From the NCBI GenBank assembly GCA_024516155.1, contig JAJJXM010000077.1, forward strand, positions 62,001 to 126,000: a DNA stretch of 64,000 bases. The letters run 5' to 3'. The translations under genes were made by a program, and so were the position numbers. The stretch comes from Pyronema omphalodes. Its lineage: Eukaryota; Ascomycota; Pezizomycetes; Pezizales; Pyronemataceae. Of this stretch, positions 1,505 to 61,312 are shown piece by piece. The notes below the pieces were generated by a model. That model was not told the DNA's origin. It saw nothing but the letters and a program-made list of their open reading frames with translations, and did no database searches. How positions within the stretch are numbered: position 1 is the first letter of the stretch; every line of letters begins with the position of its first letter.

Positions 1505-2874
1505 ACTGGCGACCCGGCTCAGCCTTATGGCGGAGTCACACAACATCTTACATGCAGACCAGATAGGCGGGCGCCCCAAACGCTCGGCTATCGACGCTGA
1601 AATGGCCCTAACGCACGAGGTCGAAGCGAATGCGGGGCGCCGCATGGTGACCTCCGCGCTATTTTTAGATGTGCGAGGGGCCTTCGACAAAGTCTCCTCC
1701 GCGCGCCTCCTTACGACAATGCGTACACTTGGCTGCCCAACTGCAGTTGTCTCCTGGTGTTCGACTTTCCTAAGCGACAGAACAACAGCCCTATCATTCG
1801 ACGGACGAACAGACATACAGCGACCCATTATCACGGGCATCCCCCAAGGTTCCCCGGCGTCCCCCATTCTCATCCTCATCTACCTGCGCCCTCTATTCGA
1901 CAAACTACAAACGACTCACCCCACGATATGGACCCCGAGCTACATGGACGACGTAGCTCTCGTTGCACACGGGCGTACCAGAGAAGAGAATGCTCGCGAA
2001 CTGGAGATCGCGGCTCGCACCGCCTTCGAATGGGCCCGAACAAATGCCGTAGCATTCAACGATTCGAAACCGGAGCTGCTGCACTTTCACCGCTCCCGCA
2101 CAGACACACTCACCGACGCCATAAACGTACGCTTGCCAAACGGAACCATCATTGCCCCAGGGACGAAAGGAGGACGGACGGACGTGGTTCGGTGGATTGG
2201 GATATATTTTGACAGAAAACTCTCCTTCTCATATCATGTAAAAACAAGACTAACGGCCGCCGCTAGGTCCCTCAACGCCCTCCGAAGCCTTGTACGTCAC
2301 GAAACAGGTCTGTCCCCATCTGCGACGAGAACACTTTACATCGCGTGTGTGCTGTCTAGGTCCGACTTTGGTTCCGAGATCTGGTGGACGGGGCAAAAAA
2401 GCCTCGCCAATTTACTACAAACGCAACAAAACTCTGCCCGCCGCCGGATCCTGATCGCCTTCGCCTCGACACCAATCGTAGCCCTACACAACGAAGCAGC
2501 TATCCCCCCAGTTTCAGTCCGCCTACACCACCGCACCCGCAAATACGTCCTCCGCCTCCTCTCTCTACCCCCCAATCACCCCATCGTCAGACGCTGCCCC
2601 TCCTCCTTTCCCATTCCCGATCACTTCCACTCCTCCATCTGCAGCCCATACAAATATGGATCTTCTATCACGTCAACACCACACGGCAACGGCGACCCCC
2701 CCCCCCTGCATTCTCAACAACGAGCACCGAAACCCCCGATTTTCTCATCGGATTCGGATTCGCAGCACTCTATTACGTTATTCTCTGAATTTTCAGGGAA
2801 TTCTACGTTGTTTTTGTTGACTTTTGTCGCAAAATCAGAGTTTTCACGAGTTTTGGCTTACCCCACCTCACGAA

Positions 2875-4065
2875 ATGTCGCCAAAACAACGACAGAACAA
2901 CGCCCGACGATCGAAACAGTCCGAAAACGCGTACAATGTTCTAGCCGACCTTCCTCATGATGGATCTACTCCTACTCTGGATGGAAGAGATGGAAAAGTT
3001 GATGAAGTTGATGGAAACTTCCCTGGAAAGCCCTTCCAGAGCGTGGTCTTGGCACGATCACCAGTTCCTTCGGCTTCAACATCGCAGCAACAGGCGACAA
3101 CTGAACACAGCCGGTTTAGTAACTACCGTCGCATAATGGTATCTGCAATTAATGAGGCAGTCGCAGTTGACGACAACTATGCCACCCTAGATCAACTGTT
3201 TATAGACAACTACGCCGAATTCACTGGAGCCAGCTTCCTGGGGATACAACAGATCCACCAGGACACACAGCGACGCTTCAATACCCTCGATGACACCATA
3301 CGCAACAACAGCGATGAGATGCGCCACAGATTCGACGTCATGATGACGACATTCGACATTCTGACCAGCGAGAACACGAAGCTGCGCGCAGCATACGACT
3401 CTACACAGGCAGAAACAGCAGCTCTCAAGGCTGCTGTGGACGCCCTGACGAAGAAAATCGACGAACAGCAACAAGTCATTTCGGCGCCCCCCTCACCGAA
3501 CCTCACGGCCTCTTCCTCAGCGATGGAAGAGATGACTATGCAACTGTCCGTCGTCCAACATGACATTCAGGATGTCCTGGACGCTGTTCGCAACCCTCCT
3601 GGCAAGAGAAAGCGAAGGGGAAGCGACCAGAACACCGAACCCACCTCACCGACAAACAGAAGACCGGTAAACCACAAACCCAGAGCGGCATCACCGGTGC
3701 GAAGCCTGATGCACTCGAAACATGCGACTACCGCCGCCCCGGACAAGCTTGATGCCCTCAAGCCTATGTCCCCCCTACCTCTCCAATCCTCGAGACCACA
3801 CGGCAACGGCGACCCCCCCCCCCTGCATTCTCAACAACGAGCACCGAAACCCCCGGTTTTCTCATCGGATTCGGATTCGCAGCACTCTGTTACGTTATTC
3901 TCTGAGTTTTCAGGGAATTCTACGTTGTTTTTGTTGACTTTTGTCGCAAAATCAGAGTTTTCACGAGTTTTGGCTTACCCCACCTCACGAAATGTCGCCA
4001 AAACAACGACAGAACAACGCCCAACGATCGAAACGGTCCGGAAACGCGTACAATGTTCTAGCTGA
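2875..4065 (+). CDS. LINE-A ORF1, dimer unit 1, 3'-truncated
   Basis: Starts at ATG 2875-2877 (MSPKQRQNNARRSKQSE). It is collinear with the other A ORF1 copies through the coiled coil and the KRKRRGSDQNTEP basic stretch to PMSPLPL (about 3785). It then reads across the dimer junction into the 5'UTR of unit 2 and stops at 4065. The last ~90 residues are therefore read-through, not ORF1. An upstream in-frame TTG at 2824 was not used, because ATG is present in every copy at the same place. I recognise no enzymatic domain. The role is presumed ORF1-like RNA binding or oligomerisation. Confidence 0.7.
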   Translation: MSPKQRQNNARRSKQSENAYNVLADLPHDGSTPTLDGRDGKVDEVDGNFPGKPFQSVVLARSPVPSASTSQQQATTEHSRFSNYRRIMVSAINEAVAVDDNYATLDQLFIDNYAEFTGASFLGIQQIHQDTQRRFNTLDDTIRNNSDEMRHRFDVMMTTFDILTSENTKLRAAYDSTQAETAALKAAVDALTKKIDEQQQVISAPPSPNLTASSSAMEEMTMQLSVVQHDIQDVLDAVRNPPGKRKRRGSDQNTEPTSPTNRRPVNHKPRAASPVRSLMHSKHATTAAPDKLDALKPMSPLPLQSSRPHGNGDPPPLHSQQRAPKPPVFSSDSDSQHSVTLFSEFSGNSTLFLLTFVAKSEFSRVLAYPTSRNVAKTTTEQRPTIETVRKRVQCSS

Positions 4066-5446
4066 CCTTCCTCATGATGGATCCAATCCTACTTTTGATG
4101 GAAGAGATGGAATAGTTGATGAAGTTGATGGAAACTTCGCTGGAAGGCCCTTCCAGAGCGTGGTCTTGGCAGGATCACCAGTTCCTTCGGCTTCAACACA
4201 CCAGCTACAAGCGACAACTGAACACAGCCGGTTCAGTACCTACCGCCGCTTGTGTGTATCCGCGATTAATGAGGCAGTTGCAGCTGATGACACCTATGCC
4301 ACCCTGGATCAGCTGTTCCATGACAACTACGCCGAACTCAATGGAGCCAGCTTCCTGGGGATACAACAGATCCACCGGGATACACAGCGACGCTTCAATA
4401 CCCTCGATGACACCATACGCAACAACAGCGATGAGATGCGCCTCAGATTCGACGTCATGATGACGAAATTCAACATTCTGACCGGCGAAAACACGAAGCT
4501 GCGCGCAGCCTACGACTCTACACAGGCAGAAACAGCAGCTCTCAAGGCTGCTGTGGACGCCCTGACGAAGAAAATCGACGAACAGCAACAAGTCATTTCG
4601 GCGCCCCCCTCACCGAACCTCACGGCCTCTTCCTCAGCGATGGAAGAGATGACTATGCAACTGTCCGTCGTCCAACATGACATTCAGGATGTCCTAGACG
4701 CTGTTCGCAACCCTCCTGGCAAGAGAAAGCGAAGGGGAAGCGACCAGAACACCGAACCCACCTCACCGACAAACAGAAGACCGGTGAACCACAAACCGAG
4801 AACGGCATCACCGGTGCGAAGCCTGATGCACTCGAAACATGCGACTACCGCCGCCCAGGACAAGCTTGATGCCCGCAAGCCTATGTCCCCCCTACCTCTC
4901 CTCGCGATCACGTCAACTGATGCGACACCGGAACCTCACCCTGACAGTTCATCTGCTCAGGACACACCTCTACCCGACGCCCCAAGCACTGCCCCTGCTG
5001 AGACGAACGGATGGAAGACTGTGGAGGCGAAGGCTACACAGAGGAAGAAGCAGAAAGCGAAGGAGACGACACCTACGGCAGCGCCACCCAGCAAGACCCC
5101 TACAACAAAGAATGGTGGACGGGGAAAGAATACCCACCAACCCAGAACGACAACCTCCTCTGCAAAGAAGACTTGGGCAGAAGTCGTCAAGAGCGGAGTC
5201 ATCAACGTCCAGATTGTGCTTGGGAATGGCAATCTTGGACTGACAACACCACTGACAAGAAGGGGAGAGAGACGAGGGGGAGCAGCGAGGAGGCTGAGGA
5301 AGAAGGAAGGAGAAGGGGAGAGAGGGGAGGAGAAGAGGGGCAGGGCGGGCCCGGGCGTCTCAAAGGGCAAAGAGTCAGGAGACACCGGTGGAGGAGGTGA
5401 GAGAGGAGAGGAGAGTGGGGGCGCGGGTGGCCCGGCGGCTGTTTAA
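3992..5446 (+). CDS. LINE-A ORF1 protein, dimer unit 2 (484 aa)
   Basis: An intact ORF from ATG 3992 to TAA 5446. In order: a basic N-terminus (MSPKQRQNNAQRSKRSGNAYNVL), a region with INEAVAADDTYATLDQL, a long coiled coil (about residues 115-200: DTQRRFNTLDDTIRNN...AALKAAVDALTKKIDEQQ), then a Ser/Pro-rich basic tail with KRKRRG. Next comes a KTWAEVVKSG motif (about residue 390), which in LINE ORF1 proteins often precedes the RNA-binding part. Here no RRM-like region or CCHC knuckle follows. The frame instead runs into a Gly/Arg/Glu-rich C-terminus encoded by purine-rich, 3'UTR-like DNA. No ORF2 follows. I infer a non-autonomous LINE protein. Molecular activity is unknown. Confidence 0.8.
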   Translation: MSPKQRQNNAQRSKRSGNAYNVLADLPHDGSNPTFDGRDGIVDEVDGNFAGRPFQSVVLAGSPVPSASTHQLQATTEHSRFSTYRRLCVSAINEAVAADDTYATLDQLFHDNYAELNGASFLGIQQIHRDTQRRFNTLDDTIRNNSDEMRLRFDVMMTKFNILTGENTKLRAAYDSTQAETAALKAAVDALTKKIDEQQQVISAPPSPNLTASSSAMEEMTMQLSVVQHDIQDVLDAVRNPPGKRKRRGSDQNTEPTSPTNRRPVNHKPRTASPVRSLMHSKHATTAAQDKLDARKPMSPLPLLAITSTDATPEPHPDSSSAQDTPLPDAPSTAPAETNGWKTVEAKATQRKKQKAKETTPTAAPPSKTPTTKNGGRGKNTHQPRTTTSSAKKTWAEVVKSGVINVQIVLGNGNLGLTTPLTRRGERRGGAARRLRKKEGEGERGEEKRGRAGPGVSKGKESGDTGGGGERGEESGGAGGPAAV

Positions 5447-5782
5447 CTTTGCTTTGGTTTTTTTTTTGCTTTGTGGAGGAAATAAAGGAGGGAAAATGGT
5501 TAAAAATGGGAGGGGAAGGGAGGAGGAAAGAGAGGAGCCCGGCGAGGCGGCCTCTGTGCAAGCAGGGCACTGGAACAGCAGACGCGGTTGGACAACAAGA
5601 CCAACGAAGTAATAGTGGGGACAGGACCACAAAATCACCGCCTAAGGGAGGATCAGCGGAGGTAGAGACGGCAATTTGTTTTGTTTTTGCTTTTGACTTT
5701 CCATGTACTATAAACCTGTACCCTCGTCATAACCAATAAGGTTGCATACGAGTAATGAATAAACAAACAAACAAACAAACAA
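5447..5782 (+). other. LINE-A 3'UTR with D-type tail
   Basis: Contains the shared GA-rich module (about 5473-5570, starting GTGGAGGAAATAAAGG). From about 5571 on it matches the 3'UTR of D#1 (45585-45793) rather than other A copies. It ends with a mini-hairpin AACC(5731-5734)-AATAA-GGTT(5740-5743) and an (AAAC)n tail to 5782. No gene is seen. Confidence 0.85.
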
Positions 5783-7022
5783 CCCATACGAATATGACTA
5801 TCGATGGCAGTCACCGGGCACGGCCCCCTCCCGCCCCGTCACTATGCTCCGCTCCGTCAGCAAGTGGGTGCTACCTGACGACATCACCGAAAACACATCG
5901 CAACCCAATCCCGCCCCATGGGAGCGCCCCCGCCTCAAGATCAACATCACCTCCCTCCCGAAGCCAGAAGCGGCTACAGCACACACAACATTGCTCCAAA
6001 CCCTCCGCACAGACCCCCGCAACATTATCGCATACACTGACGGTTCACAACTAAACGGAAGAACCGGAGCGGGATATTGCATCACCGACGGCCTACCTCG
6101 CTGAGTGGAAGAACTCACCCCAATGGGCGATACAACCGAAGTATTTGACGCTGAGCTCAGAGCGATACACGACTGCCTTACGACCTGCCTAAAAACCATC
6201 ACCCTCAACAGACACACCCGCCGCAAAATACACATATTTACAGACAATCAAGCAGCCATCCTCCCCGCCTCCCGCTCCTCCTACGGTCCCGGCCAAGAAC
6301 TGGCCCTCTCGATCCTCACGACGGTGTCCGCTCTTCACCGATCCGGATCGTCCGTTACTCTACATTGGGTCCCCAGCCACACAGACATCCCTGGGAACGA
6401 CACAGCCGATCTCCTGGCAAAAACAGCTACCTCCCTTGCTCCCACCGCGCCTCCCCCGATTTCCCTCTCCTGGGTTAGACGCCAGGTACGAGAGCAGTAT
6501 GTTACCGACTGGGTAAACTGGTACTCTTCATCACCGAAGCCCAAGACGTACGACGCCCCCCACCGCAAAAGACTCGACAACGCATACACTACCGTCCCGC
6601 GTAAGATATCGACGGCCATACTGGGACTTCGCACAGGCCATGAATATTTTTTGGACTGCCTAGCACACCCCCCCACCGCCAAATACCCCTCCCGCTCCTG
6701 CCACTGCCCACTACATCCCCCACAAATACCCAAGCACCTAATCCTCTCATGCCCGAACTTCAACACACAGCGGACTGAAGTACGCCGTACACTACACATC
6801 CCCCGACGACGCCAACTGACTCTCCCCACGATCTTGTATACGACTGCCGGCACGAAAGCTCGGTCCACCATGATCTCGGACACCAAGGTGGCGACCGCCG
6901 AATGGGCACACGCGAAGTTGAGTACTCACCCCGCAGAGGAGGACACCCCTCGTACACTGACGACAGGCTGGGGGACGCTGCTGGACCTAACGGACGAGCA
7001 CGCGGAAACCCACGATAACTAA

Positions 7023-7874
7023 TGGAAAAGCACAAAAAAAGAAAAAAAAAAAAAAAACAAAATAATAATAAAAATAATAAAAATAATAAAAATAAAAATG
7101 ATATATATGTATATAGACGACGAGTAGGGCGAATGGGGGTCGAGTGGAAGCGGGGACGCTGTCGGAAGGAGAGGAGCGAGAACGGGAGGAAGAGAAGGCG
7201 AGAGGGAGGAGACACAGGGGATCAGGAACGAGGCAGAGGGGGCAGGAGGAGCACCGGGGGGACGAGGAGGGGTTACTTTTCCTGTTTTCTTTTGTTTCTT
7301 TAGGGGGAGGTGAAGGGGAACGTGAGATGGGCGGGGAGGCGAAGATGAAAGGCGCGCGGGAAAGGAGATCGGAGACGGTGACGAGTGAGAGGTGATGATG
7401 CGCGGAGGTAGAGAAGGAGAAGAGGCGCGGACGGGAGGGAGCATCGGAGAGGGATGAGAGGGGGAGAGCAGAGGAGTTGAGGATGAGGACGGAGAGAGGG
7501 GAGAGAGGGGAGGTGCGGGGGCGGTGGCCCGGAGGAGTTACTTTTTCTTTTGTTCTGTTTTTGCTTTGTGGAGGAAATAAAGGCGGGAAAATGGTTGAAA
7601 ATGGGAGGGGAAGGGTGGAGGAAATGGGGGATCGACCCGGCGAGGTGGCCTCCGAGCGCACAGGGCTGCTTGGATCTGACGACGCTAGATGAAAAACTGC
7701 ACGGCGAGACTTGGGAGACTACACTCCCACCCACATAAACAGCTCTGGGGCTTACCCAGTGGGGACCTGGCATCACCCCCAGGTCCTCAACATTGTATTT
7801 AATTTGTAGATTCCGCCATAACCTCACGGTTGGATGCGTGTATGAATAAATAAATAAATAAATAAATAAATAAA
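7023..7874 (+). other. LINE-C2 3'UTR and (TAAA)n tail
   Basis: Starts with an A-rich tract with AATAAT repeats (7027-7118), then purine-rich DNA, then the shared module from 7568 (GTGGAGGAAATAAAGG). It ends with the mini-hairpin AACC(7820-7823)-TCAC-GGTT(7828-7831) and a (TAAA)n tail (about 7843-7874). The ORFs in this stretch are low-complexity by-products. Confidence 0.85.
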
Positions 7875-8491: not shown

Positions 8492-9226
8492 TGTCAGAAT
8501 CCGGCTACACACAGTCGACAGGCGATACAACCGTCGGATTGCTATGCAATCGGGTTCGGCTCTGGACTTCTAGGTGAGTTAGTCGCGGGCTCAGGCAGTA
8601 CTTACCTTGTACACAGGATGTCCCTGCAGCGTTGCCTCTGGTAGAATTGTCGGAGGTCGATCCGGGTGGGAGAATAGGTGGGTATTCGGAATGGGTAAGT
8701 ATGTTGGGATGGGCTGGGTTTGTGGTCACGGTTTTAGATGATAGAACTGCAGTGTGTAGATAGGATTGTGTAGATAGATAATTGATTGCGTACTAAACTA
8801 ATGAAATACAAATGTCCCCTTATATACCTTTGTTCCTGTGCTCATGTGATTTCCCAACTTATCTGTCCCACAGATATTCCATCCATCATGAGACACCCTT
8901 CGCTCCACCGTGACTCCCAAACCTAACCCAAACACAATACGAAACATAAACCAAACCCAATACAAAACATAAGCAAAACGTAATACAAAACATAAGCAAA
9001 ACATAATACAAACATATTCCAAACCTCGAGGAAACCCTCCTCGTTCCACCCCGCACTTACCCCCTTGTCCCTCGCTTAACCCTAACTCCTCTGGCCTAGC
9101 CCTAGCTCCACCTCCTCGCTTAAACCCTAACCGTGACGTACGCCATCCCTAGTGTCACACCCACGAACCAGAGCCCAGCTGTGGTTACAATCCCTCCCAG
9201 AAGCATATCCTTAGCGGTCCGTGACA
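8492..9226. mobile_element. Solo LTR (735 bp) with 5-bp TSD
   Basis: The insertion is exact when compared with the uninterrupted ORF1 at 20925-20940. It begins TGTCA and ends TGACA (TG..CA termini, 5-bp inverted ends). It is flanked by CTCAC at 8487-8491 and 9227-9231. A TATATA lies at 8821-8826. There is no gag or pol sequence, so this is a solo LTR left by LTR-LTR recombination. The 5-bp TSD fits Ty3/gypsy or Ty1/copia. The family is not determined. Confidence 0.88.
8936..9015. repeat. 23-bp tandem repeat, about 3.5 units, in the solo LTR
   Basis: Units start at 8936, 8959, 8982 and 9005 (partial). The second and third read AATACAAAACATAAGC followed by AAAACGT or AAAACAT. The first is diverged. 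It lies entirely inside the LTR. Confidence 0.85.
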
Positions 9227-17289: not shown

Positions 17290-18525
17290 CGGAAGTTCGG
17301 AATAAGTTGATTCTGCGGTAGCGACAAGGAATCCGCGGTTGAAATGATGGTTGTTGATGTGGGTGGAGGGTGGTGTTGATGGAACCGGTTCGCGGGGCTT
17401 TTCTCAGGGGCCCGAAAACTCTTTTTCGATGAAAACTCAACGAAAAAGAGAGGGCCTGATCTGGAAATGCTGCGAATAGGTAATTCGGGGCTGCCGAACA
17501 ATAATCCGCGATAAAATCTTGCGATTTCGGCGTGGTTGTTGAAAAGGCAGGGGGGGGTCGCTCTTTGCTGTGTACAATCTGTGCGTTTTGCTCTTGATCG
17601 TTGTGGTTTTCAACATCGCAGCAACAGGCAACAACTGAACACAGCCGGTTTAGTAACTACCGTCGCATAATGGTATCTGCAATTAATGAGGCAGTCGCAG
17701 TTGACGACAACTATGCCACCCTAGATCAACTGTTTATAGACAACTACGCCGAATTCACTGGAGCCAGCTTCCTGGCGATACAACAGATCCACCAGGACAC
17801 ACAGCGTTGCTTCAATACCCTCGATGACACCATACGCAACAACAGCGATGAGATGCGCCACAGATTCGACGTCATGATGACAAAATTCCACATTCTGACC
17901 GGCGAAAACACGAAGCTGCGCGCAGCATACGACTCTACACAGGCAGAAACAGCAGCTCTCAAGGCTGCTGTGGACGCCCTGACGAAGAAAATCGACGAAC
18001 AGCAACAAGTCATTTCGGCGCCCCCCTCACCGAACCTCACGGCCTCTTCCTCAGCGATGGAAGAGATGACTATGCAACTGTCCGTCGTCCAACATGACAT
18101 TCAGGATGTCCTGGACGCTGTTCGCAACCCTCCTGGCAAGAGAAAGCGAAGGGGAAGCGACCAGAACACCGAACCCACCTCAGCGACAAACAGAAGACCG
18201 GTAAACCACAAACCCAGAGCGGCATCACCGGTGCGAAGCCTGATGCACTCGAAACATGCGACTACCGCCGCCCAGGACAAGCTTGATGCCCTCAAGCCTA
18301 TGTCCCCCCTACCTCTCCAATCCTCGAGACCACACGGCAACGGCGACCCCCCCCCCCTGCATTCTCAACAACGAGCACCGAAACCCCCGGTTTTCTCATC
18401 GGATTCGGATTCGCAGCACTCTGTTACGTTATTCTCTGAGTTTTCAGGGAATTCTACGTTGTTTTTGTTGACTTTTGTCGCAAAATCAGAGTTTTCACGA
18501 GTTTTGGCTTACCCCACCTCACGAA

Positions 18526-19980
18526 ATGTCGCCAAAACAACGACAGAACAACGCCCAACGATCGAAACGGTCCGGAAACGCGTACAATGTTCTAGCTGAC
18601 CTTCCTCATGATGGATCCAATCCTACTTTTGATGGAAGAGATGGAATAGTTGATGAAGTTGATGGAAACTTCGCTGGAAGGCCCTTCCAGAGCGTGGTCT
18701 TGGCAGGATCACCAGTTCCTTCGGCTTCAACACACCAGCTACAAGCGACAACTGAACACAGCCGGTTCAGTACCTACCGCCGCTTGTGTGTATCCGCGAT
18801 TAATGAGGCAGTTGCAGCTGATGACACCTATGCCACCCTGGATCAGCTGTTCCATGACAACTACGCCGAACTCAATGGAGCCAGCTTCCTGGGGATACAA
18901 CAGATCCACCGGGACACACAGCGACGCTTCAATACACTCGAGGAATCCATGCGCAACAACAACGATGCGATACACGGCAGATTCGACGTCATGATGACGA
19001 AATTCAACGATCTGCTCTTCGAAAACGCGACGCTGCGCACAGCATACGACTCTACACAGGCAGAAACAGCAGCTCTCAAGGCCGCTGTGGACGCCCTGAC
19101 GAAGAAAATCGACGAACAGCAACAAGTCATTTCGGCGCCCCCCTCACCGAACCTTACGGCCTCTTCCTCAGCCATGGAAGAGATGACTATGCAACTGTCC
19201 GTCGTCCAACATGACATTCAGGATGTCCTAGACGCTGTTCGCAACCCTCCTGGCAAGAGAAAGCGAAGGGGAAGCGACCAGAACACCGAACCCACCTCAC
19301 CGACAAACAGAAGACCGGTGAACCACAAACCTAGAACGGCATCACCGGTGCGAAGCCTGATGCACTCGAAACATGCGACTACCGCCGCCCAGGACAAGCT
19401 TGATGCCCGCATGCCTATGTCCCCCCTACCTCTCCTCGCGATCACGTCAACTGATGCGACACCGGAACCTCACCCTGACAGTTCATCTGCTCAGGACACA
19501 CCTCTACCCGACGCCCCAAGCACTGCCCCTGCTGAGACGAACGGATGGAAGACTGTGGAGGCGAAGGCTACGCAGAAGAAGAAGATGAAAGCGCAGGAGA
19601 CGAGACCTACGGCAGCGACACCCAGCAAGACCCCTACAACGAAGACTGGTGGCAGGGGAAAGAATACCCACCAACCCAGACAGACAACCCCCTCCGCAAA
19701 GAAGACTTGGGCAGAAGTCGTCAAGAGCGGAGGCATCAACGTCCAGATTGTGCTTGGGAATGGCAATCTTGGACTTACAACACCACCGACAAGAAGGGGA
19801 GAGAGGCGAGGCGGGGCAGCGAGAAGGCTGAGAAAGAAGGAGGGAGAAGGGGAGAGAGGGGAGGACAAGAGGGGCAGGGCGGGCCCGGGTGTTTCAGAGG
19901 GCAAAGAGTCAGGAGACACCGGCGGAGGAGTTGAGAGAGGGGAGGAGAGTGGGGGCGTAGGTGGCCCGGCGGCTGTTTAA
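18526..19980 (+). CDS. LINE-A ORF1 protein, dimer #2 unit 2 (484 aa)
   Basis: An intact ORF from ATG 18526 to TAA 19980, the same length as the copy at 3992. The first ~115 residues equal that copy. Residues of the coiled coil at nucleotides ~18931-19045 differ in a block (LEESMRNNNDAIHGRFD...NDLLFENATLRT against LDDTIRNNSDEMRLRFD...NILTGENTKLRA). The text then becomes near-identical again until a second patch (KKKMKAQETRPTAATP). This looks like a mosaic of two subfamilies. It keeps KTWAEVVKSG and the Gly/Arg-rich C-terminus, and lacks knuckles and ORF2. Function is inferred only from resemblance to LINE ORF1 coiled-coil proteins. Confidence 0.8.
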   Translation: MSPKQRQNNAQRSKRSGNAYNVLADLPHDGSNPTFDGRDGIVDEVDGNFAGRPFQSVVLAGSPVPSASTHQLQATTEHSRFSTYRRLCVSAINEAVAADDTYATLDQLFHDNYAELNGASFLGIQQIHRDTQRRFNTLEESMRNNNDAIHGRFDVMMTKFNDLLFENATLRTAYDSTQAETAALKAAVDALTKKIDEQQQVISAPPSPNLTASSSAMEEMTMQLSVVQHDIQDVLDAVRNPPGKRKRRGSDQNTEPTSPTNRRPVNHKPRTASPVRSLMHSKHATTAAQDKLDARMPMSPLPLLAITSTDATPEPHPDSSSAQDTPLPDAPSTAPAETNGWKTVEAKATQKKKMKAQETRPTAATPSKTPTTKTGGRGKNTHQPRQTTPSAKKTWAEVVKSGGINVQIVLGNGNLGLTTPPTRRGERRGGAARRLRKKEGEGERGEDKRGRAGPGVSEGKESGDTGGGVERGEESGGVGGPAAV

Positions 19981-20305
19981 CTTTACTTTGGTTTTGTTTT
20001 TGCTTTGTGGGGGAAATAAAGGCGGAAAAATGGTTAAAAATGGGAGGGGAAGGGTGGAGGAAATGGGGGAACGACCCGGCGAGGTGGCCTCCGAGCGTAC
20101 AGGGCTCCCGGAACAGACGACGCTTGACGAACAAAAGCACAACGAGACTTGGGGGTCTACAACCCCACACCCTAACGACAAGCTCTGGGGCATACCCAGT
20201 GAGAGCCTGGCCTGACACCCGGGTTTCTTAATTTTGTATTTACTGTAGATTCCGCCATAACCTTACGGTTGGATGCGTGTATGAGTTAATAAATAAATAA
20301 ATAAA
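19981..20305 (+). other. LINE-A 3'UTR with C-type tail
   Basis: The shared module is at about 20007-20106. From there it matches the C#2 3'UTR (reverse complement of 46229-46500), including the CTCTGGGGCATACCC segment. The mini-hairpin is AACC(20259-20262)-TTAC-GGTT(20267-20270), followed by a (TAAA)n tail. Confidence 0.88.
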
Positions 20306-20335: not shown

Positions 20336-20764
20336 ACAACCACACAGCAACCGCTGACCCCCCCCTGCATTTTCGACAACAACCTCAAATTTCCCGGCTC
20401 TGCCGACGGAAATAGCATTATCGCACTCAGTTTACCCCGAATCCCGATTTCCAGGCCCGAATTCCCGTTTACCGTTGAGTTTCAGCGGAAAAACGCGATT
20501 CTGGGACCTCCGACCGGTCAACGGGCCTTTCCATCAACGCCGCCCCACCACCCGGCCTCCGATCATCATACAAACCTCATATTCGGTTTCGGCACACCGA
20601 ATTCCCCCCCTCCCCAAATTCCCCTTTCGCCAGCAGCACTGGTTGTGGTGGACCCCAAAATTTCCCCCCTTTCGGACCCCCTCTCTTCGCGAAAATTTTC
20701 TCTCGCTTAACCAGAGCCTCTCACGTGACCCGTAGCCTTCGCTTACGGAGATCCCGATTTAGCG
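20336..20764 (+). other. LINE-B2 5'UTR (B2#2)
   Basis: Starts with the shared 5' motif and C-run, then AT/GC-mixed DNA with a TTCGGCA/TACCGAA hairpin near 20590 and C-runs near 20605-20625. It ends at the ORF1 ATG (20765). A promoter is expected inside this region because LINEs carry internal promoters, but I cannot point to its elements. Confidence 0.7.
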
Positions 20765-26427: not shown

Positions 26428-27258
26428 ACCCCTACCGCTGACTACACTGACCGCAGTACCTTAGGAACTTTCGCGCGCGCTGATTTTGCAGTGCTTTCTT
26501 ACTTAGGATTTCTGTTTTGTAAAAAAAAAAAAGAAAAAAAAAAGGGACAAGCAAAAGGGGAAGGTAGAAGAGGGATAGGCGGAGAGAAAGGGAACGGGCA
26601 CGCGGTGACGGGATCGGGCTGGGGTCGTTGCTTGGGTCTGCTTGGGGTTCGGGTGTTTTGAGTTTTCTTTTCTTTGTCTTTCAATTGTTTGTCTTACGGG
26701 TTGGAGTTGTTTTATGGTACGGCGGGTGAGAAGGGAACGGATGGTGGAATGGTGCACAGGAAGGGAGATGACGGGGACGGCAGGCGAGAGAGGGCAGACG
26801 AGTTTCTTTTGTACTTTCCTTTGTTTGGGTGCGACGATGTCTTTCTTATGTTCGGAGGGCGGGAGGAGTGCGAGGCGTTGCGAAAGGAGAGTGAGGGGCA
26901 CGGGGAAGGGGCAGAGGAGGACGGCGGGAGTTACCTTTTTCTTTTGTACGCGGAGGAAACAAAGGCGGTAAAATGGCTAAACATGGGAAGGGGAAGGGAG
27001 GAGGAAAGGGAGGGGCCCGGCGAGGCGGCCTCTGTGCAAGCAGGGCACTTGGAACATCAGACGCGCTTGGACAAGAAACCCCCTTAGTAACAGTGGGGAC
27101 AGACCCCACAACCACAACGATCAAGAGGAGGAGACTGGTAGAGGTGGAGACTGGGTTTTTGCTTTTACATTTCTTTCTTCTTCTCTTTTGTATTTATCTG
27201 TCCCTTGTCATAACCTTCGGGTTGCAAACAAGTAATGAGAGAACAAACAAACAAACCT
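26428..27258 (+). other. LINE-B 3'UTR and (AAAC)n tail (B2#2)
   Basis: Has an A-rich tract (26520-26545), G/T-rich DNA, the shared module (about 26950-27048, CGGAGGAAACAAAGGCGG form) and a GATCAAGAGGAGGAG segment. It ends with the mini-hairpin AACC(27212-27215)-TTCG-GGTT(27220-27223), with a UUCG-type loop, and the tail 27240-27258. No gene is seen. Confidence 0.85.
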
Positions 27259-27995: not shown

Positions 27996-28403
27996 GGAAG
28001 GGACACCCACAGGACAGCAGCCTAATCGACAAAATCACCAAACCCCACCAACTTTCACCGCAACAACCCCAGCAACAACCCCACCCCGGACCGACAACCA
28101 CTGCCCCCCAACCTCCCGACTAACTCCAGCAGTTGAAGGAGCGCTGTCGAATGCTGGAAGCCACCCTCCGACACCATAATATCCCCCTACCGACCCGACG
28201 ATCACACACCACACGGCAACGGCGACCCCCCCCCCTGCATTCTCAACAACGAGCACCGAAACCCCCGGTTTTCTCATCGGATTCGGATTCGCAGCACTCT
28301 GTTACGTTATTCTCTGAATTTTCAGGGAATTCTACGTCGTTTTTGTTGACTTCTGTCGCAAAATCAGAGTTTTCACGAGTTTTGGCTTACCCCACCTCAC
28401 GAA

Positions 28404-29858
28404 ATGTCGCCAAAACAACGACAGAACAACGCCCGACGATCGAAACGGTCCGAAAACGCGTACAATGTTCTAGCCGACCTTCCTCATGATGGATCCAATC
28501 CTACTTTCGATGGAAGAGAAGGAAAAGTTGATGAAGTTGATGGAAACTTCGCTGGAAAACCCTTCCAGAGCGTGGTCTTGGCAGGATCACCAGTTCCTTC
28601 GGCTTCAACACACCAGCAACAAGCGACAACTGAACACAGCCGGTTCAGAGCCTACCGTCGCTTCTTCGTATCTGCAATTAACGAGGCAGTTGCAGTTGAT
28701 GAGGGCTATGCCACCCTAGATCAACTGTTCATAGACAACTACGCCGAACTCACCGGAGCCAACTTCCTGGGGATACAACAGATCCACCGGGATACACAGC
28801 GACGCTTCAATACCCTCGATGACACCATACGCAACAACAGCGATGAGATGCGCCTCAGATTCGACGTCATGATGACGAAATTCAACATTCTGACCGGCGA
28901 AAACACGAAGCTGCGCGCAGCCTACGACTCTACACAGGCAGAAACAGCAGCTCTCAAGGCTGCTGTGGACGCCCTGACGAAGAAAATCGACGAACAGCAA
29001 CAAGTCATTTCGGCGCCCCCCTCACCGAACCTCACGGCCTCTTCCTCAGCGATGGAAGAGATGACTATGCAACTGTCCGTCGTCCAACATGACATTCAGG
29101 ATGTCCTAGACGCTGTTCGCAACCCTCCTGGCAAGAGAAAGCGAAGGGGAAGCGACCAGAACACCGAACCCACCTCACCGACAAACAGAAGACCGGTGAA
29201 CCACAAACCGAGAGCGGCATCACCGGTGCGAAGCCTGATGCACTCAAAACATGCGACTACCGCCGCCCAGGACAAGCTTGATGCCCTCAAGCCTATGTCC
29301 CCCCTACCTCTCCTCGCGATCACGTCAACCGATGCGACACCGGAACCTCACCCTGACAGTCCATCTGCTCAGGACACACCTCTACCCGACGCCCCAAGCA
29401 CTGCCCCTGCTGAGACGAACGGATGGAAGACTGTGGAGGCGAAGGCTACACAGAGGAAGAAGCAGAAAGCGAAGGAGACGACACCTACGGCAGCGCCACC
29501 CAGCAAGACCCCTACAACAAAGAATGGTGGACGGGGAAAGAATACCCACCAACCCAGAACGACAACCTCCTCTGCAAAGAAGACTTGGGCAGAAGTCGTC
29601 AAGAGCGGAGGCATCAACGTCCAGATTGTGCTTGGGAATGGCAATCTTGGACTGACAACACCACCGACAAGAAGGGGAGAGAGGCGAGGGGGAGCAGTGA
29701 GGAGGCTGAGGAAGAAGGAAGGAGAAGGGGAGAGAGGGGAGGAGAAGAGGGGCAGGGCGGGCCCGGGTGTCTCAACGGGCAAAGAGTCAGGAGACACCGG
29801 CGGAGGAGGGGAGAGAGGAGAGGAGAGTGGGGGCACGGGTGGCCCGGCGGCTGTTTAA
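28404..29858 (+). CDS. LINE-A ORF1 protein, A#3 (484 aa)
   Basis: Intact from ATG 28404 to TAA 29858. Same plan as the copy at 3992: MSPKQRQNNARRSKRSENAYNVLADLPHDG, the coiled coil (HRDTQRRFNTLDDTIRNN...KAAVDALTKKIDEQQ), MEEMTMQLSVVQHDIQDVL, a KRKRRGSDQ basic patch, a Pro/Thr-rich linker, KTWAEVVKSGG, then the GERRGGAVRRLRKKEGEGERGEEKRGR tail. No RRM-like region or CCHC. Three complete ORF1-A copies here have the same length, which suggests either selection for the reading frame or a recent burst. A structural RNA-packaging role is inferred. Confidence 0.85.
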   Translation: MSPKQRQNNARRSKRSENAYNVLADLPHDGSNPTFDGREGKVDEVDGNFAGKPFQSVVLAGSPVPSASTHQQQATTEHSRFRAYRRFFVSAINEAVAVDEGYATLDQLFIDNYAELTGANFLGIQQIHRDTQRRFNTLDDTIRNNSDEMRLRFDVMMTKFNILTGENTKLRAAYDSTQAETAALKAAVDALTKKIDEQQQVISAPPSPNLTASSSAMEEMTMQLSVVQHDIQDVLDAVRNPPGKRKRRGSDQNTEPTSPTNRRPVNHKPRAASPVRSLMHSKHATTAAQDKLDALKPMSPLPLLAITSTDATPEPHPDSPSAQDTPLPDAPSTAPAETNGWKTVEAKATQRKKQKAKETTPTAAPPSKTPTTKNGGRGKNTHQPRTTTSSAKKTWAEVVKSGGINVQIVLGNGNLGLTTPPTRRGERRGGAVRRLRKKEGEGERGEEKRGRAGPGVSTGKESGDTGGGGERGEESGGTGGPAAV

Positions 29859-30193
29859 CTTTGCTTTGGTTTTGTTTTTGCTTTGTGGAGGAAATAAAGG
29901 AGGAAAAATGGTTAAAAATGGGAGGGGAAGGGAGGAGGAAAGGGAGGAGCCCGGCGAGGCGGCCTCTGTGCAAGCAGGGCACTTGGAACATCAGACGCGC
30001 TTGGACAAGAAACCCCCGTAGTAACAGTGGGGACAGACCCCACAACCACAACGATCAAGAGGAGGAGACTGGTAGAGGTGGAGACTGGGTTTTTGCTTTT
30101 ACATTTCTTTCTTCTTCTCTTTTGTATTTATCTGTCCCTTGTCATAACCTTCGGGTTGCAAACAAGTAATGAGAGAACAAACAAACAAACAAA
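29859..30193 (+). other. LINE-A 3'UTR with B-type tail (A#3)
   Basis: The shared module is at 29885-29980. The remainder matches the B2#2 3'UTR (27050-27258). The mini-hairpin is AACC(30146-30149)-TTCG-GGTT(30154-30157), and the (AAAC)n tail ends at 30193. Confidence 0.88.
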
Positions 30194-30417
30194 CCCCCTA
30201 CCGACCACCACCACCCCCTGCCGTCAGAACCCACCAGCAACGAACAAACCAGCAGCACCCTGGACCAGCGGAAACGCAGCAAGCGACCTCCTCTCCTCCG
30301 ACCACGCCCCTCGACAAACCCCGCCTGCACGCCCAACCCAACGACCAACCCGACCGCGCCCCCAGTACATCATCGTACCGTGCACCAACCCCTCTCAACT
30401 CAACGTGAATACCAGGT

Positions 30418-31261
30418 TTGTTTGTTTGTTCTCTCATTACTTGTTTGCAACCCGAAGGTTATGACAAGGGACAGATAAATACAAAAGAGAAGAAGAAAGA
30501 AATGTAAAAGCAAAAACCCAGTCTCCACCTCTACCAGTCTCCTCCTCTTGATCGTTGTGGTTGTGGGGTCTGTCCCCACTGTTACTACGGGGGTTTCTTG
30601 TCCAAGCGCGTCTGATGTTCCAAGTGCCCTGCTTGCACAGAGGCCGCCTCGCCGGGCTCCTCCCTTTCCTCCTCCCTTCCCCTTCCCATGTTTAGCCATT
30701 TTACCGCCTTTGTTTCCTCCGCGTACAAAAAAAAAAAAAAAAAAAAAGAAAAAGGTAACTCCCGTCGTCCTCCTCTGCCCCTTCCCCGCGCCCCTCTCTC
30801 TCCTTTCGCAACGTCTCGCACTCCTCCCGCCCTTCGAACCTAAGAAAAACATCGTCGCACCCAGACAAAGGAAAGTACAAAAGAAACTCGTCTGCCCTCT
30901 CTCGCCTGCCGTCCCCGTCATCTCCCTGCCTGTGCACCATTCCACCATCCGTTCCCTTCCCACCCGCCGTACCATAAAACAACTCCAACCCGTAAGACAA
31001 ACAATTGAAAGACAAAGAAAAGAAAACTCAAAACACCCGAACCCCAAGCAGACCCAAGCAACGACCCCAGCCCGATCCCGTCACCGCGTGCCCGTTCCCT
31101 TTCCCTCCGCCTATCCCTCTTCTACCTTCCCCTTTTGCTTGTCCCCTTTTTTTTTTTTTTTTTTTTTTTCAAAACAGAAATCCTAAGTAAGAAAGCACTG
31201 CAAAATCAGCGCGCGCGAAAGTTCCTAAGGTACTGCGGTCAGTGTAGTCAGCGGTAGGGGT
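30418..31261 (-). other. LINE-B 3'UTR and tail (B#1)
   Basis: On the minus strand, after the ORF2 stop come an A-rich tract (31149-31170), the shared module (about 30625-30730, with an A-run at 30727-30747), the mini-hairpin (GGTT 30457-30460 and AACC 30449-30452 on the plus strand) and the (AAAC)n tail (30418-30431). No gene is seen. Confidence 0.85.
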
Positions 31262-42730: not shown

Positions 42731-43178
42731 GAGGGGCAGGGCGGGCCCGGGTGTCTCGAAGGGCAAAGAGTCAGGAGACACCGGCGGAGGAGGGGAGAGA
42801 GGAGAGGAGAGTGGGGGCACGGGTGGCCCGGCGGCTGTTTAACTTTGCTTTGGTTTTGTTTTTGCTTTGTGGAGGAAATAAAGGCGGAAAAATGGCTAAA
42901 CATGGGAAGGGGAAGGGAGGAGGAAAGGGAGGAGCCCGGCGAGGCGGCCTCTGTGCAAGCAGGGCACTTGGAACATCAGACGCGCTTGGACAAGAAACCC
43001 CCGTAGTAACACTGGGGACAGACCCCACAACCACAACGATCAAGAGGAGGAGACTGGTAGAGGTGGAGACTGGGTTTTTGCTTTTACATTTCTTTCTTCT
43101 TCTCTTTTGTATTTATCTGTCCCTTGTCATAACCTTCGGGTTGCAAACAAGTAATGAGAGAACAAACAAACAAACAAA
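42731..43178 (+). mobile_element. LINE-A copy A#4, 5'-truncated, B-type tail
   Basis: Starts in the last codons of ORF1-A (GAGGGGCAGGGCGGGCC) and continues through the ORF stop (TAA at about 42841), the shared module (42869-42966) and a B-type 3' end with AACC(43131-43134)-TTCG-GGTT(43139-43142) and the (AAAC)n tail. It is head-to-head with B#2. No TSD was recognised. Confidence 0.85.
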
Positions 43179-45143: not shown

Positions 45144-45793
45144 TAAGCAGCACCGCTTGACTTTTCCGTGCGTTGTAGATTCGTTGCTCTCTTATGACTT
45201 CATGTATTCTTTCTCATTTTCTTTGCTTTTCTGTTTCCTTTGTTATCGCGGGCGGAGTAGGATAGGAGAAGACAGGGGAAGGAGAAGGGACCGGGGAAGG
45301 AAGGGGGGACGAGATTGCGCGACGAGAAATTTTTTCCTTTGATTATTTCCTTTCTTTTGCTTTGTTTTTAAGGGCGGAAGGGGTATACGGGATTGCACGA
45401 GGAGAGAGAGGCGCGATGGGAAGGGGCAGAGTGGGCCGGCGGAGGTTATCTTTTTCTTTTTCTTTTTCTTTTCTTCGTGGAGGAAATAAAGGCAGGAAAA
45501 CGGCTAAAACATGGGAGGGGAAGGGTGGAGGAAAGAGAGGACACCCGGCGCGGTGGCCTCTGTGCGAACAGGGCACTGGAACAGCAGACGCGGTTGGACA
45601 ACAAGACCAACGGAGTAATAGTGGGGACAGGACCACAAAATCACAGCCTAAGGGAGGATCAGCGGAGGTAGAGACGGGACTTTGTTTTGGTTTTTGCTTT
45701 TGACTTTCCATGTACTATAAACCTGTACCCTCGTCATAACCAATAAGGTTGCATACGAGTAATGAATAAACAAACAAACAACAAACAAACAAA
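45144..45793 (+). other. LINE-D 3'UTR and tail
   Basis: T-rich then purine-rich DNA, the shared module (about 45475-45575), and a segment GGAACAGCAGACGCGG also present in the A dimer at 5573-5588, then the mini-hairpin and tail. No gene. Confidence 0.85.
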
Positions 45794-46228: not shown

Positions 46229-47017
46229 TTTATTTATTTATTTATTAACTCATACACGCATCCAACCGTAAGGTTATGGCGGAATCTACAGTAAATACAA
46301 AATTAAGAAACCCGGGTGTCAGGCCAGGCTCTCACTGGGTATGCCCCAGAGCTTGTCGTTAGGGTGTGGGGTTGTAGACCCCCAAGTCTCGTTGTGCTTT
46401 TGTTCGTCAAGCGTCGTCTGTTCCAGGAGCCCTGTACGCTCGGAGGCCACCTCGCCGGGTCGTTCCCCCATTTCCTCCACCCTTCCCCTCCCATTTTTAA
46501 CCGTTTTTCCACCTTTATTTCCTCCACAAAGCAAAAACAAACAAGCAAAAGAAAAGAAAAGAAGATATAACTCCCCCGGGTCAACGCCCCCCCATCGCAC
46601 CTCTCTCCCCTGTGCCACTACCCTACTCTACGTCCCTCCCCTCGCCCTTCACCACGCTCCTCCCTCTCGGTTCGCCGGCCATCCATCGTCCCACTCCGTC
46701 CACTTCTCTCCGCGTCACCATCTCGTACTCGCCTCATTCGTGCTCCACCCGTCCGTCTCCACCGCGTCTCTCCTCTCCCTCGACTCCTCGCCTCACTTTC
46801 ACTCCCGTTTCAAAAAGAAAAAAACACAAGACTCCATTCTCCACAACAACCACGCCTCCGCTCTCCCAGTCTCCCGTCTCCACTCTCTCCTCGTCATCGT
46901 CCGCTTCCTCCCCCTCCCCTCTCCCTCGTCTCTCTCTCCGCTCTCGCCTCCCGCTTCTCCCTCCCTCCGTCCTCCTCCTACTTCTTTTTATTATTATTTT
47001 ATTTTATTTTTTTTTTT
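46229..47017 (-). other. LINE-C 3'UTR and tail (C#2)
   Basis: Same layout as 10028-10831: A-rich tract after the ORF2 stop (46985-47020), purine-rich stretch, shared module (about 46430-46530), mini-hairpin (AACC 46264-46267, GGTT 46272-46275 on the plus strand), tail. No gene. Confidence 0.85.
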
Positions 47018-58162: not shown

Positions 58163-58796
58163 TAAGCAGTACCGCTTGACTTCTCCGTGCGTTATAGATT
58201 CGTCGCTCTCTTTTGACCTCATGTATTCCTTCTCATTTTCTTTGCTTTTCTGTTTCCTTTGTTATCGCGGGCGGAGTTGGATAGGAGGAGACAGTGGAAG
58301 GAGAAGGGACCGGGGTAGCAAGGGGGGACGGGATTGCGCGACGAGAGTTTTTCCTTTGATTATTTCCTTTCTTTTGTTTTGTTTTTAAGGGCGGAAGGGG
58401 TATACGGGATTGCACGAGGAGAGAGAGGCGCGATGGGAAGGGGCAGAGTGGGCCGGCGGAGGTTATGTTTTTTCTTTTTGTTCGTGGAGGAAATAAAGGC
58501 GGGAAAAACGGCTAAAACATGGCAGGGGAAGGGTGGAGGAAAGAGAGGACACCCGGCGCGGTGGCCTCTGTGCGAACAGGGCACTGGAACAGCAGACGCG
58601 GTTGGACAACAAGACCAACGAAGTAATAGTGGGGAAAGGACCACAAAATCACAGCCTAAGGGAGGATCAGCGGAGGTAGAGACGGGACTTTGTTTTGTTT
58701 TTGCTTTTGACTTTCCATGTACTATAAACCTGTACCCTCGTCATAACCAATAAGGTTGCATACGAGTAATGAATAAACAAACAAACAAACAAACAT
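58163..58796 (+). other. LINE-D 3'UTR and tail (D#2)
   Basis: Same organisation as 45144-45793: T-rich then purine-rich, shared module about 58484-58585, mini-hairpin, (AAAC)n tail. No gene. Confidence 0.8.
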
Positions 58797-58982: not shown

Positions 58983-60510
58983 GACACACGGCAACGGCGA
59001 CCCCCCCCCCCCCTGCATTCTCAACAACGAGCACAGAAACCGCCGGTTTTCTCATCGGATTCGGATTCGCAGACCTCTATTACGTTATTCTCTGAATTTT
59101 CAGGGAATTCTACGTTGTTTTTGTTGACTTTTGTCGCAAAATCAGAGTTTTCACGAGTTTTGGCTTACCCCACCTCACGAAATGTCGCCAAAACAACGAC
59201 AGAACAACGCCCGACGATCGAAACGGTCCGAAAACGCGTACAATGTTCTAGCCGACCTTCCTCATGATGGATCCAATCCTACATTTGATGAAAGAGATGG
59301 AAAAGTTGATGAAGTTGATGGAACCATCGCTGGAAAGCCCTTCCAGAGCGTGGTCTTGGCAGGATCGCCAGTTCCTTCGGCTTCAACACAGCAGCAACAG
59401 GTGACAACTGAACACAGCCGGTTCAGAACCTACCGTCGCCTCTTCGTATCTGCAATTAACGAGTCAGTCGCAGTTGATGACGACTATGACACCCTAGATC
59501 AACTGTTTGAAAACAGTCACGCCGAACTCACTGGAGCCAACTTCCTGGGGATACACCAGATCCACCGGGATACACAGCGACGCTTCAATACCCTCGATGA
59601 CACCATACGCAACAACAGCGATGAGATGCGCCACAGATTCGATGTCATGATGACGAAATTCAACGTTCTGCTCGGCGAAAACACGAAGCTGCGCGCAGCA
59701 TACGACTCTACGCAGGCAGAAACAGCAGCTCTCAAGGCTGCTGTGGACGCCCTGACGAAGAAAATCGACGAACAGCGACAAGTCATTTCGGCGCCCCCCT
59801 CACCGAACCTCACGGCCTCTTCCTCAGCGATGGAAGAGATGACTATGCAACTGTCCGTCGTCCAACATGACATTCAGGATGTCCTGGACGCTGTTCGCAA
59901 CCCTCCTGGCAAGAGAAAGCGAAGAGAAAGCGACCAGAACACCGAACCCACCTCACCGACAAACAGAAGACCGGTGAACCACAAACCGAGAGCGGCATCA
60001 CCGGTGCGAAGCCTGATGCACTCGAAACATGCGACTACCGCCGCCCAGGACAAGCTTGATGCCCTCAAGCCTATGTCCCCCCTACCTCTCCTCGCGATCA
60101 CGTCGACCGAAGCGACACCGGAACCTCACCCTGACAGTCCATCTGCTCAGGACACACCTCCACCCGACGCCCCAAGCACTGCCCCTGCTGAGACCGACGG
60201 ATGGAAGACTGTGGAGGCAAAGGCTACACAGAGGAAGAAGCAGAAAGCGAAGAAGACGACACCCACGGCAGCGACACCCAGCAAGACCCCTACAACAAAG
60301 AATGGTGGCCGGGGAAAGAATACCCACCAACCCAGAACGACAACCTCCTCTGCAAAGAAGACTTGGGCAGAAGTCGTCAAGAGCGGAGGCATCAACGTCC
60401 AGATTGTGCTTGGGAATGGCAATCTCGGACTGACAACACCACCGACAAGAAGGGGAGAGAGGCGAGGGGGAGCAGTGAGAAGGCTAAGGAAGAAGGAAGG
60501 AGAAGGGGAG
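58983..60510 (+). mobile_element. LINE-A copy A#5, 3' end cut by C#4
   Basis: The 5' end is at about 58983 (ACACACGGCAACGGCGA, 13-C run, the longest here). ORF1 is open to the insertion of the C#4 tail at 60511, inside the purine-rich C-terminal part. The rest of A#5 would lie beyond C#4, outside the window. Confidence 0.87.
59182..60510 (+). CDS. LINE-A ORF1, 3'-truncated (A#5)
   Basis: ATG 59182 (MSPKQRQNNARRSKRSENAYNVL). Same order of parts as A#3: coiled coil (HRDTQRRFNTLDDTIRNN, ENTKLRAAYDSTQ), KRKRRESDQNTEP, the Thr/Pro linker, KTWAEVVKSGG, RRGERRGGAVRRLRKKEGEGE. It differs in DYDTLDQLFENSHAELTGANFLGIHQ. The frame then runs into the C#4 tail and stops at 60558. No other domain. Confidence 0.8.
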
Positions 60511-61312
60511 ATTTATTTATTTATTTATTTATTAACTCATACACGCATCCAACCGTAAGGTTATGGCGGAATCTACAGTAAATACAAAATTAAGAAACCC
60601 GGGTGTTAGGCCAAGCTCTCACTGGGTATGCCCCAGAGCTTGTCGTTAGGGTGTGGGGTTGTAGACCCCCAAGTCTCGTTGTGCTTTTGTTCGTCAAGCG
60701 TCGTCTGTTCCAGGAGCCCTGTACGCTCGGAGGCCACCTCGCCGGGTCGTTCCCCCATTTCCTCCACCCTTCCCCTCCCTTTTTTAACCGTTTTTCCACC
60801 TGTATTTCCTCCACAAAGCAAAAATAAACAAGCAAAAGAAAAGAAAAGAAGATATAACTCCCCCGGGTCAACGCCCCCCCCATCGCACCTCTCTCCCCTG
60901 TGCCACTACCCTACTCTACGTCCCTCCCCTCGCCCTTCACCACGCTCCTCCCTCTCGGCTCGCCGGCCATCCATCGTCCCACTCCGTCCACTTCTCTCCG
61001 CGTCACCATCTCGTACTCGCCTCATTCGTGCTCCTCCCGTCCGTCTCCACCGCGTCTCTCCTCTCCCTCGGCTCCTCGCCTCACTTTCACTCCCGTTTCA
61101 AAAAGAAAAAACACAAGACTCCGTTCTCCACAACAACCACGCCTCCGCTCTCCCAATCTCCCGTCTCCACTCTCTCCTCGTCATCGTCCGCTTCCTCCCC
61201 CTCCCCTCTCCCTCGTCTCTCTCTCCGCTCTCGCCTCCCGCTTCTCCCTTCCTCCGTCCTCCTCCTACTTCTTTTTATTATTATTTTATTTTATTTTATT
61301 TTTTTTTTTTTT
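60511..61312 (-). other. LINE-C 3'UTR and tail (C#4)
   Basis: As for C#1: A-rich tract at 61275-61316, shared module about 60720-60820, then hairpin and tail. No gene. Confidence 0.82.

Follow-up and report, generated by a model that had tools for sequence, protein, structure and literature searches.

A protein-coding retroelement family of Pyronema omphalodes bearing the 3' tails of several LINE families

The A element and its surroundings

Pyronema omphalodes is a soil fungus, an ascomycete of burn sites. We analyzed a 64,000-nt stretch of its contig JAJJXM010000077.1 (hereafter the window; assembly of 60.8 Mb in 232 contigs), which is crowded with nested copies of LINE-B, LINE-C, LINE-C' and LINE-D. 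A Pfam scan found endonuclease, reverse transcriptase (RT) and RNase H domains in the ORF2s of LINE-B and LINE-C. Among the LINEs lie copies of an element of about 2 kb, here called A, which consists of a 5' leader, a single 484-codon ORF, a GA-rich 3' module and then a LINE tail (Table 1). Copies of A are located on the + strand at 2678, 3795, 9618, 17609, 18329, 28208, 42731 and 58985 and on the - strand at 56462, and an A fragment is present near 1371-1508. About 45 bp of the 5' terminus (a C run plus TGCATT) are common to A, LINE-B and LINE-C (3795-3838, 20339-20380, 53165-53210 and 37272-37324), and also to A2, a sister family of A described below.

Table 1. Positions of A elements, their parts and the cognate LINE tails in the window
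Feature	Positions	Strand	Remarks
A_D, D-tailed A element forming the second unit of an A-A dimer	3795..5782	+	5' terminus at about 3795
A_D ORF, 484 aa	3992..5446	+	long helix 102-202 predicted; C-terminus basic/disordered
A_D GA-rich 3' module	5447..5570	+	distal part B-type; last switch to D at about 5562-5570
LINE-D type tail of A_D	5571..5782	+	3' hairpin, AATAA loop, AAAC repeats
3'-truncated A copy, first dimer unit, joined to the next A 5' end	2678..3784	+	
5' TSD of dimer plus D tail	2645..2658	+	14 bp, one mismatch; within LINE-C' copy
3' TSD of dimer plus D tail	5783..5796	+	
A_C, A element with C tail	18329..20305	+	ORF 18526-19980, module 19981-20126, tail 20127-20305
A copy truncated 5' and 3', upstream of A_C	17609..18318	+	dimer junction same as 3784/3795
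A_B, A element with B tail	28208..30193	+	ORF 28404-29858, module 29859-29983, tail 29984-30193
5' TSD of A_B	28183..28195	+	13 bp
3' TSD of A_B	30194..30206	+	13 bp
5'-truncated A_B copy	42731..43178	+	earlier switch (46-54 nt past stop)
A copy ending abruptly at 60511	58985..60511	+	adjoins opposite-strand LINE-C end
LINE-D cognate tail	45577..45788	+	ORF2 part 43224-45143
LINE-D cognate tail	58585..58795	+	
LINE-C module and cognate tail	46229..46527	-	ORF2 47245-51018
LINE-B cognate tail	30416..30625	-	ORF2 31262-35188 (endonuclease, RT, RNase H)
LINE-B cognate tail	27047..27256	+	
LINE-C' cognate tail	7690..7866	+	

To place the window copies in the genome, we sampled 8 loci by a D-tail query, 30 by a query with the A body upstream of the tail, 30 by an A-C junction query, 6 by the A2 protein and 8 by LINE-D ORF2. 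The first 68 loci together with the window yielded 87 A copies that reached the ORF end, and 79 after identical ones were dropped, some of which may still be one copy or local duplicates. Tails C and D are over-represented among these 79 because of the C and D queries. A tail-unselected set was therefore also used, comprising the best 30 of 40 scored copies from 555 candidates, ranked by their similarity to the window copy with tail D.

The A copies have a single protein-coding ORF and no RT. No RT-bearing ORF2 was found within the A unit: in 25 of the 30 tail-unselected copies the ORF was followed by a LINE tail at a distance of no more than 175 nt, and the other five, all tailless, were cut short within the body (three) or broken in the module (two). 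An autonomous A relative elsewhere in the genome is possible. Nor is A a SINE with a short Pol III (tRNA-, 5S- or 7SL-derived) head and no protein, as it is about 2 kb long, has a 484-codon ORF and lacks an Rfam match; in an Rfam scan of the window, no family reached its gathering score.

The protein encoded by A had 158 relatives at E≤0.001, from P. omphalodes and metagenomes. The window A ORF matched no Pfam family at E≤0.001, and 35 relatives scanned at E≤0.1 gave scattered coiled-coil models only. An AlphaFold model, mostly of low confidence (mean pLDDT 50.7, pTM 0.24), contained one long helix at residues 102-202 and disorder elsewhere. An earlier note on this DNA had termed A an ORF1-only element; homology to the ORF1 of LINE-B or LINE-C went undetected when the partners were two alignments of LINE ORF1, one with 4 rows and one with 3 (hhalign probability 1.1% and 0.2%), and "ORF1" is therefore a label by position only. 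Comparison of A with A2 gave a dN of 0.33 and a dS of 0.74, with dN/dS ratios of 0.45 and 0.40 in two pairs (experimental Biopython routine), and internal stops were absent from 81 of 88 scored matches, which were best candidates only. Judged from these sequences, the A ORF is maintained under purifying selection.

LINE tails of A and their junctions

Our comparison of three window copies bore out the earlier claim that A copies have near-identical bodies and different ends: body and module together were 93-97% identical, versus 57-72% for the tails. For A_D and A_B the two values were 97.1% and 71.6% (Fisher p 5e-33), for A_D and A_C 95.4% and 57.0% (p 2e-52), and for A_B and A_C 93.4% and 59.9% (p 1e-37). 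The donors that had been proposed for the ends also proved correct in a self-comparison of the window. The end at 5571-5782 was 98.1% identical to the LINE-D end at 58585-58795 and 97.2% to that at 45577-45788, compared with about 72% for LINE-B ends. The end at 20007-20305 matched LINE-C at 46527-46229 (98.7%), 60814-60516 (97.3%) and 10332-10034 (97.0%), all on the - strand, and those at 29981-30193 and 42967-43178 matched LINE-B (98.1-100%) at 30625-30416 (- strand), 27047-27256 and 63558-63345 (- strand). Each tail of the three compared copies was 97.6-100% identical to a LINE-D, LINE-C or LINE-B end, so that the 3' end of A is homologous to that of its partner LINE, and A tails differed from LINE tails of their own class by 1.1-1.8%.

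Alignment of the 3' regions confirmed the loops AATAA, TTAC and TTCG and the AAAC or TAAA repeats read previously from the sequence, and showed that all tails end in a hairpin (CATAACC-loop-GGTTG) followed by these short repeats. The hairpin held in 95.2% of cells across 7 tail types. Two lower-stem pairs varied on both sides, essentially as one split of B/D versus C, and shuffles matched this count in 389 of 500 cases, which makes the covariation weak evidence. The LINE tail of A is probably the part that the copying enzymes recognize.

Among the 79 deduplicated A copies, 41 bore tail C, 20 tail B, 11 tail D and one an older C' tail, and 6 had none; the tail-unselected set (best 30 of 40 scored) contained 14 B, 6 C and 5 D tails and the five tailless copies. 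Within each tail class of the 79, the spacing between ORF end and tail was constant, with a start offset of mostly 126 (B), 147 (C) or 125 (D). The C' tail (90.4% identity) belongs to an older A copy (88.8%) at L002 738-1356 and represents a fourth tail type. We then classed the sequence directly upstream of each tail in 82 loci and the window. All 26 classed LINE rows, which represent 23 distinct loci because 3 rows are window copies counted twice, carried the cognate tail (LINE-D 10, LINE-B 8, LINE-C 6, LINE-C' 2). A bodies were found upstream of tail C in 49 rows, tail B in 27 and tail D in 15 (not deduplicated), and 8 tails had no classed upstream sequence. Since the LINEs sampled carry their cognate tail only and A bodies carry several, tail diversity in this sample is a property of A and not of the LINEs.

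The GA-rich module aligns across A, LINE-B, LINE-C, LINE-C' and LINE-D, and the switch from A to LINE sequence lies within it, as had been suggested. Switch points were determined in 72 A copies with tails B, C or D as the best split of the diagnostic columns into an A-type and a LINE-type part; recombination was assessed by best-split counts and Fisher tests, the best-split fits having no null of their own. In 72 of 72 copies the A type stood to the left and the LINE type to the right, and all counted switches fell in the module, over about 110 bp. The best split fitted 105-107 of 112 sites for tail B, 101-104 of 108 for tail C and 72-75 of 77 for tail D in the rows given. In the window, the switch occurred 61-75 nt past the ORF stop in A_C, at 64-75 nt in the full-length A_B and at 46-54 nt in the truncated A_B at 42731. 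For the D-tailed copy, which the earlier note had delimited as 5473-5782, the switch does lie in the module, but the last one is at about 5562-5570, or 116-124 nt past the stop, so that 5473 is a point inside the module.

Across the genome sample the junctions formed about seven classes, all inside the module. Tail B was joined 46-54 nt past the stop in 2 copies, at 59-64 nt in 1, probably through an indel effect, and at 64-75 nt in 17; tail C was joined at 51-61 nt in 7 copies and at 61-75 nt in 34. Measured against the A_B module, tail D was joined at 116-124 nt in 8 copies, at 75-85 nt in 1 (L017) and at 59-75 nt in 2 (L020, L029). The class at 116-124 nt has a B-type module before the D tail, which implies either that two switches took place or that a single one started from an A_B copy; such copies are serial chimeras of A body, B-type module and D tail. 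Locus L017 also holds a LINE-B copy (276) that is LINE-B upstream and has an A-type module, an apparent exchange in the opposite direction; its split fit was poor (22 of 31 sites), as were those of two further LINE-B rows that differ in their poly-T.

Tail-bearing A copies with enough flank were scored for TSDs, called at a score of at least 11. TSDs were found in 15 of 46 such copies versus 0 of 269 shuffled flank pairs, with 8 of 14 for tail B, 4 of 23 for C, 3 of 8 for D and 0 of 1 for C'. For copies that begin no more than 80 bases from the 5' end, the counts were 8 of 10 (B), 2 of 5 (C) and 3 of 5 (D). Six of the seven main junction classes had at least one copy with a TSD, including A_B 46-54 (L034), A_C 51-61 (L026, L035) and A_D 59-75 (L020), and the L017 copy (75-85) had a weak one with a score of 9. 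Since TSDs flank copies of each of the tail classes B, C and D, the chimeras retrotranspose as units.

Two A-A head-to-tail dimers, at 2678-5782 and 17609-20305, each consist of a truncated A that runs into the 5' end of a complete A, with an identical junction in both, and end in tails D and C, respectively. The first dimer with its D tail sits between CCCATACAAATATG and CCCATACGAATATG, within a LINE-C' copy whose sequence resumes beyond either end of the insertion. Both dimers are mismatch-free over 640 bases spanning the junction (3741-4380) and diverge beyond. The junction lies at the exact 5' terminus, and because RT template jumping gives such joins, it supports RNA-level junction formation, but only indirectly. 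A different type of fusion, without a tail, occurs at L033 1-2047, where the 5' end of another A begins about 16 bases after an A ORF end.

History and mechanism of tail exchange

On a body tree of 45 long-body A copies (1,048 columns), the tail labels required 4 changes (minimum 2; shuffled mean 19.3), with C basal and D nested in B. Two copies departed from this pattern: L023 combines a B-type body with tail C, and the D-tailed copy at 3795 of the window groups with B bodies. Mean body distances over the last 600 nt were 4.7% for B-C, 3.1% for B-D and 5.4% for C-D, copies with less than 85% body identity being excluded. The tails largely follow body subfamilies, which is compatible with a single origin per tail, and AU tests rejected a single clade for none of the three tails (p 0.076 for C, 0.054 for B and 0.174 for D). 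Thus, of the tail exchange that was originally claimed, the part that held is that closely related bodies carry three (once four) LINE tails, with the switch in the module and TSDs around the units; the sorting of most tails by body speaks against free reshuffling. We conclude that tails were exchanged on a few to several occasions, each chimera being amplified afterwards.

The sister family A2 (P0008 type) is about 79% identical to A in the alignable parts of leader and ORF and 58% in protein. Ten A2 copies and a mosaic copy, L052, carry tail C at 98.9-100% identity. The A2 loci are L069-L074, L042, L050, L060 and L061 (L047 and L070 are the same copy, as are L057 and L072), and tail C was present on all A2 copies sampled. 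The last 300 nt of the ORF were 92-98% identical between A and A2, versus 35-85% for most of the earlier part, and dS, which was 0.6-1.45 for the greater part of the ORF, dropped to 0.17-0.20 across its final 88 codons. This drop points to a transferred 3' cassette, and constraint at the DNA level is possible.

The best explanation for these observations is template switching during reverse transcription. We consider it probable that A is a non-autonomous non-LTR retroelement whose tail is renewed by template switching in the shared module, the chimera then being amplified. A would thus be composed of a LINE-like 5' terminus, an orphan ORF, a GA-rich module that the resident LINEs also have, and a LINE tail that can be exchanged. 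The A copies seen, having no RT of their own, would presumably be mobilized by the RT of the LINE that matches the tail. Target-primed reverse transcription would begin at the 3' tail of either a LINE or a second A copy. Inside the homologous module the RT would then change over to an A RNA as template, which would give an A body with a new tail; amplification of the chimera would follow. We infer both the switching at the RNA level and the choice of RT by the tail from sequence comparison, from which it is also reasonable to suppose that A may use several RTs.

A possibility of some weight, which fits either an RNA-level or a DNA-level mechanism, is that each tail was gained only once and that the additional junction classes and the mixed bodies arose afterwards, when A copies recombined with each other. 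The AU tests leave one clade per tail standing, the tree needs only two changes more than the minimum, and the module of L023 is of the A_C type, so that its tail C may derive from an A_C copy. Against a single gain stand the seven junction classes, the finding that the two C classes occur mostly in different body clades, and the two contexts of the D tail, which follows a B-type module in some copies and is attached directly in others.

The main rival as to mechanism, which we regard as unlikely, is that the tails were moved at the DNA level, by gene conversion or unequal recombination among the densely nested copies of A and the LINEs, and that RT merely amplified the products. The window is indeed full of nested, highly similar copies; gene conversion explains the mismatch-free stretch of the two dimers equally well, and the fall of dS at the end of the A/A2 ORF is in its favor. 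The dimer junction was found at two sites, both in the window, where local duplication followed by conversion can also account for it. Furthermore, the TSDs of amplified copies are silent on how the founder arose, and few of the C-tailed copies have them. However, DNA-level exchange does not readily account for the confinement of all counted switches to the module with the same A-left, LINE-right polarity, for a dimer junction placed exactly at the 5' terminus within one TSD, or for TSD-bearing copies in nearly every main junction class.

We rejected the explanation that old, separate A families descended together with their tails, which is very improbable. Body subfamily and tail are associated, but the outcome that the earlier note had named as refuting exchange, namely separate old families in which each tail has its own diverged body, was absent: bodies differ by 3-5% and tails by 28-43%, the tails are nearly identical to those of LINEs, and the A2 copies, despite their much more distant bodies, carry the same tail C. 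Least credible of all, and likewise rejected, is mimicry by truncated LINEs nested in A 3' ends, since nested insertions are common in the window but the ORF-to-tail distance is constant within each class despite different flanks, the junctions lie at homologous positions and the TSDs enclose the whole chimera.

Relation to known elements

The MINE elements of Magnaporthe (WEIRD-MGL and WEIRD-MgSINE chimeras) were attributed to RT template switching and are flanked by TSDs (PMC2104539). A chimeras resemble them in being fungal, in joining two RNAs in the same orientation, with a foreign-RNA 5' part and a LINE-end 3' part, and in their TSD flanks. However, WEIRD is described as non-coding, 31 of 33 chimeras join a single LINE (MGL) and the MGL parts are 5'-truncated (PMC2104539), whereas A has a selected ORF, three to four LINE tails and a switch within a homologous module.

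CORE-SINEs, like A, have a common body with the 3' ends of different LINE families, the tail being taken as the part recognized by the RT (PMC3747384), and tail replacement was found to have reanimated a SINE (PMC7983390). Unlike A, SINEs encode no protein, and the CORE-SINE examples described are scattered over different genomes and families (PMC3747384), whereas three tails of A coexist in one genome as classes of 1-2% divergence. HAL1 (half-L1) is, like A, a non-autonomous, single-protein element; it is mobilized by a LINE (PMC5753468), as A presumably is, and a coiled-coil-like helix is predicted for the A protein. However, HAL1 encodes the L1 ORF1p, whereas the A protein has no detectable relation to the ORF1 of LINE-B or LINE-C; the excerpted account of HAL1 makes no mention of tail exchange among LINE families (PMC5753468). 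MoTeR2 of Magnaporthe, like A, has termini in common with an autonomous fungal non-LTR element and an unrelated coding region (PMC7367193). It differs in that both of its ends are common to one partner, MoTeR1, at telomeres (PMC7367193), whereas A has its short 5' terminus in common with LINE-B and LINE-C and takes its 3' end from several of them.

A search of the open-access PMC literature gave no match for an ORF-carrying element with the tails of several LINE families or for a Pyronema paper on the A element. No other element found there pairs an ORF under selection with the tails of multiple LINE families within a single genome, tail replacement itself being known for SINEs. SINE tail replacement is usually reconstructed across species, whereas A is one young family in one genome with the donor LINEs alongside. 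Three or more LINE tails can be studied in it together with TSDs, switch points placed on the sequence and a double switch in series. This makes it possible to test whether the tail alone picks the copying LINE RT, and whether a shared 3' module exists for letting parasites change their host RT. As a protein-coding satellite, A keeps its ORF under selection although RT must be supplied from elsewhere. Tentatively, A may be a satellite of several masters, whose coiled-coil protein would package or protect its own RNA and whose tail would serve as a docking cassette that template switching in the LINE-homologous module exchanges and renews; it could then follow whichever LINE family is active and chain switches, as from A to B to D.

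Some features of the LINE copies themselves were also recorded. A LINE fragment at 53219-55023 (RNase H part, - strand) is about 72% identical to LINE-B over 1.5 kb, and none of the four tails (B, C, D, C') was found beside it. Short tandem repeats lie in or beside LINE copies at 14144-14183 (9 bp x 4.4) and 8919-9024 (23 bp x 4.7). The LINE-B copies at 20339-27256 and 30416-37316 are 95% identical over the ORFs and 3' end and about 80% over the first 475 bases, and the 5' ends of LINE-B likewise look mosaic.
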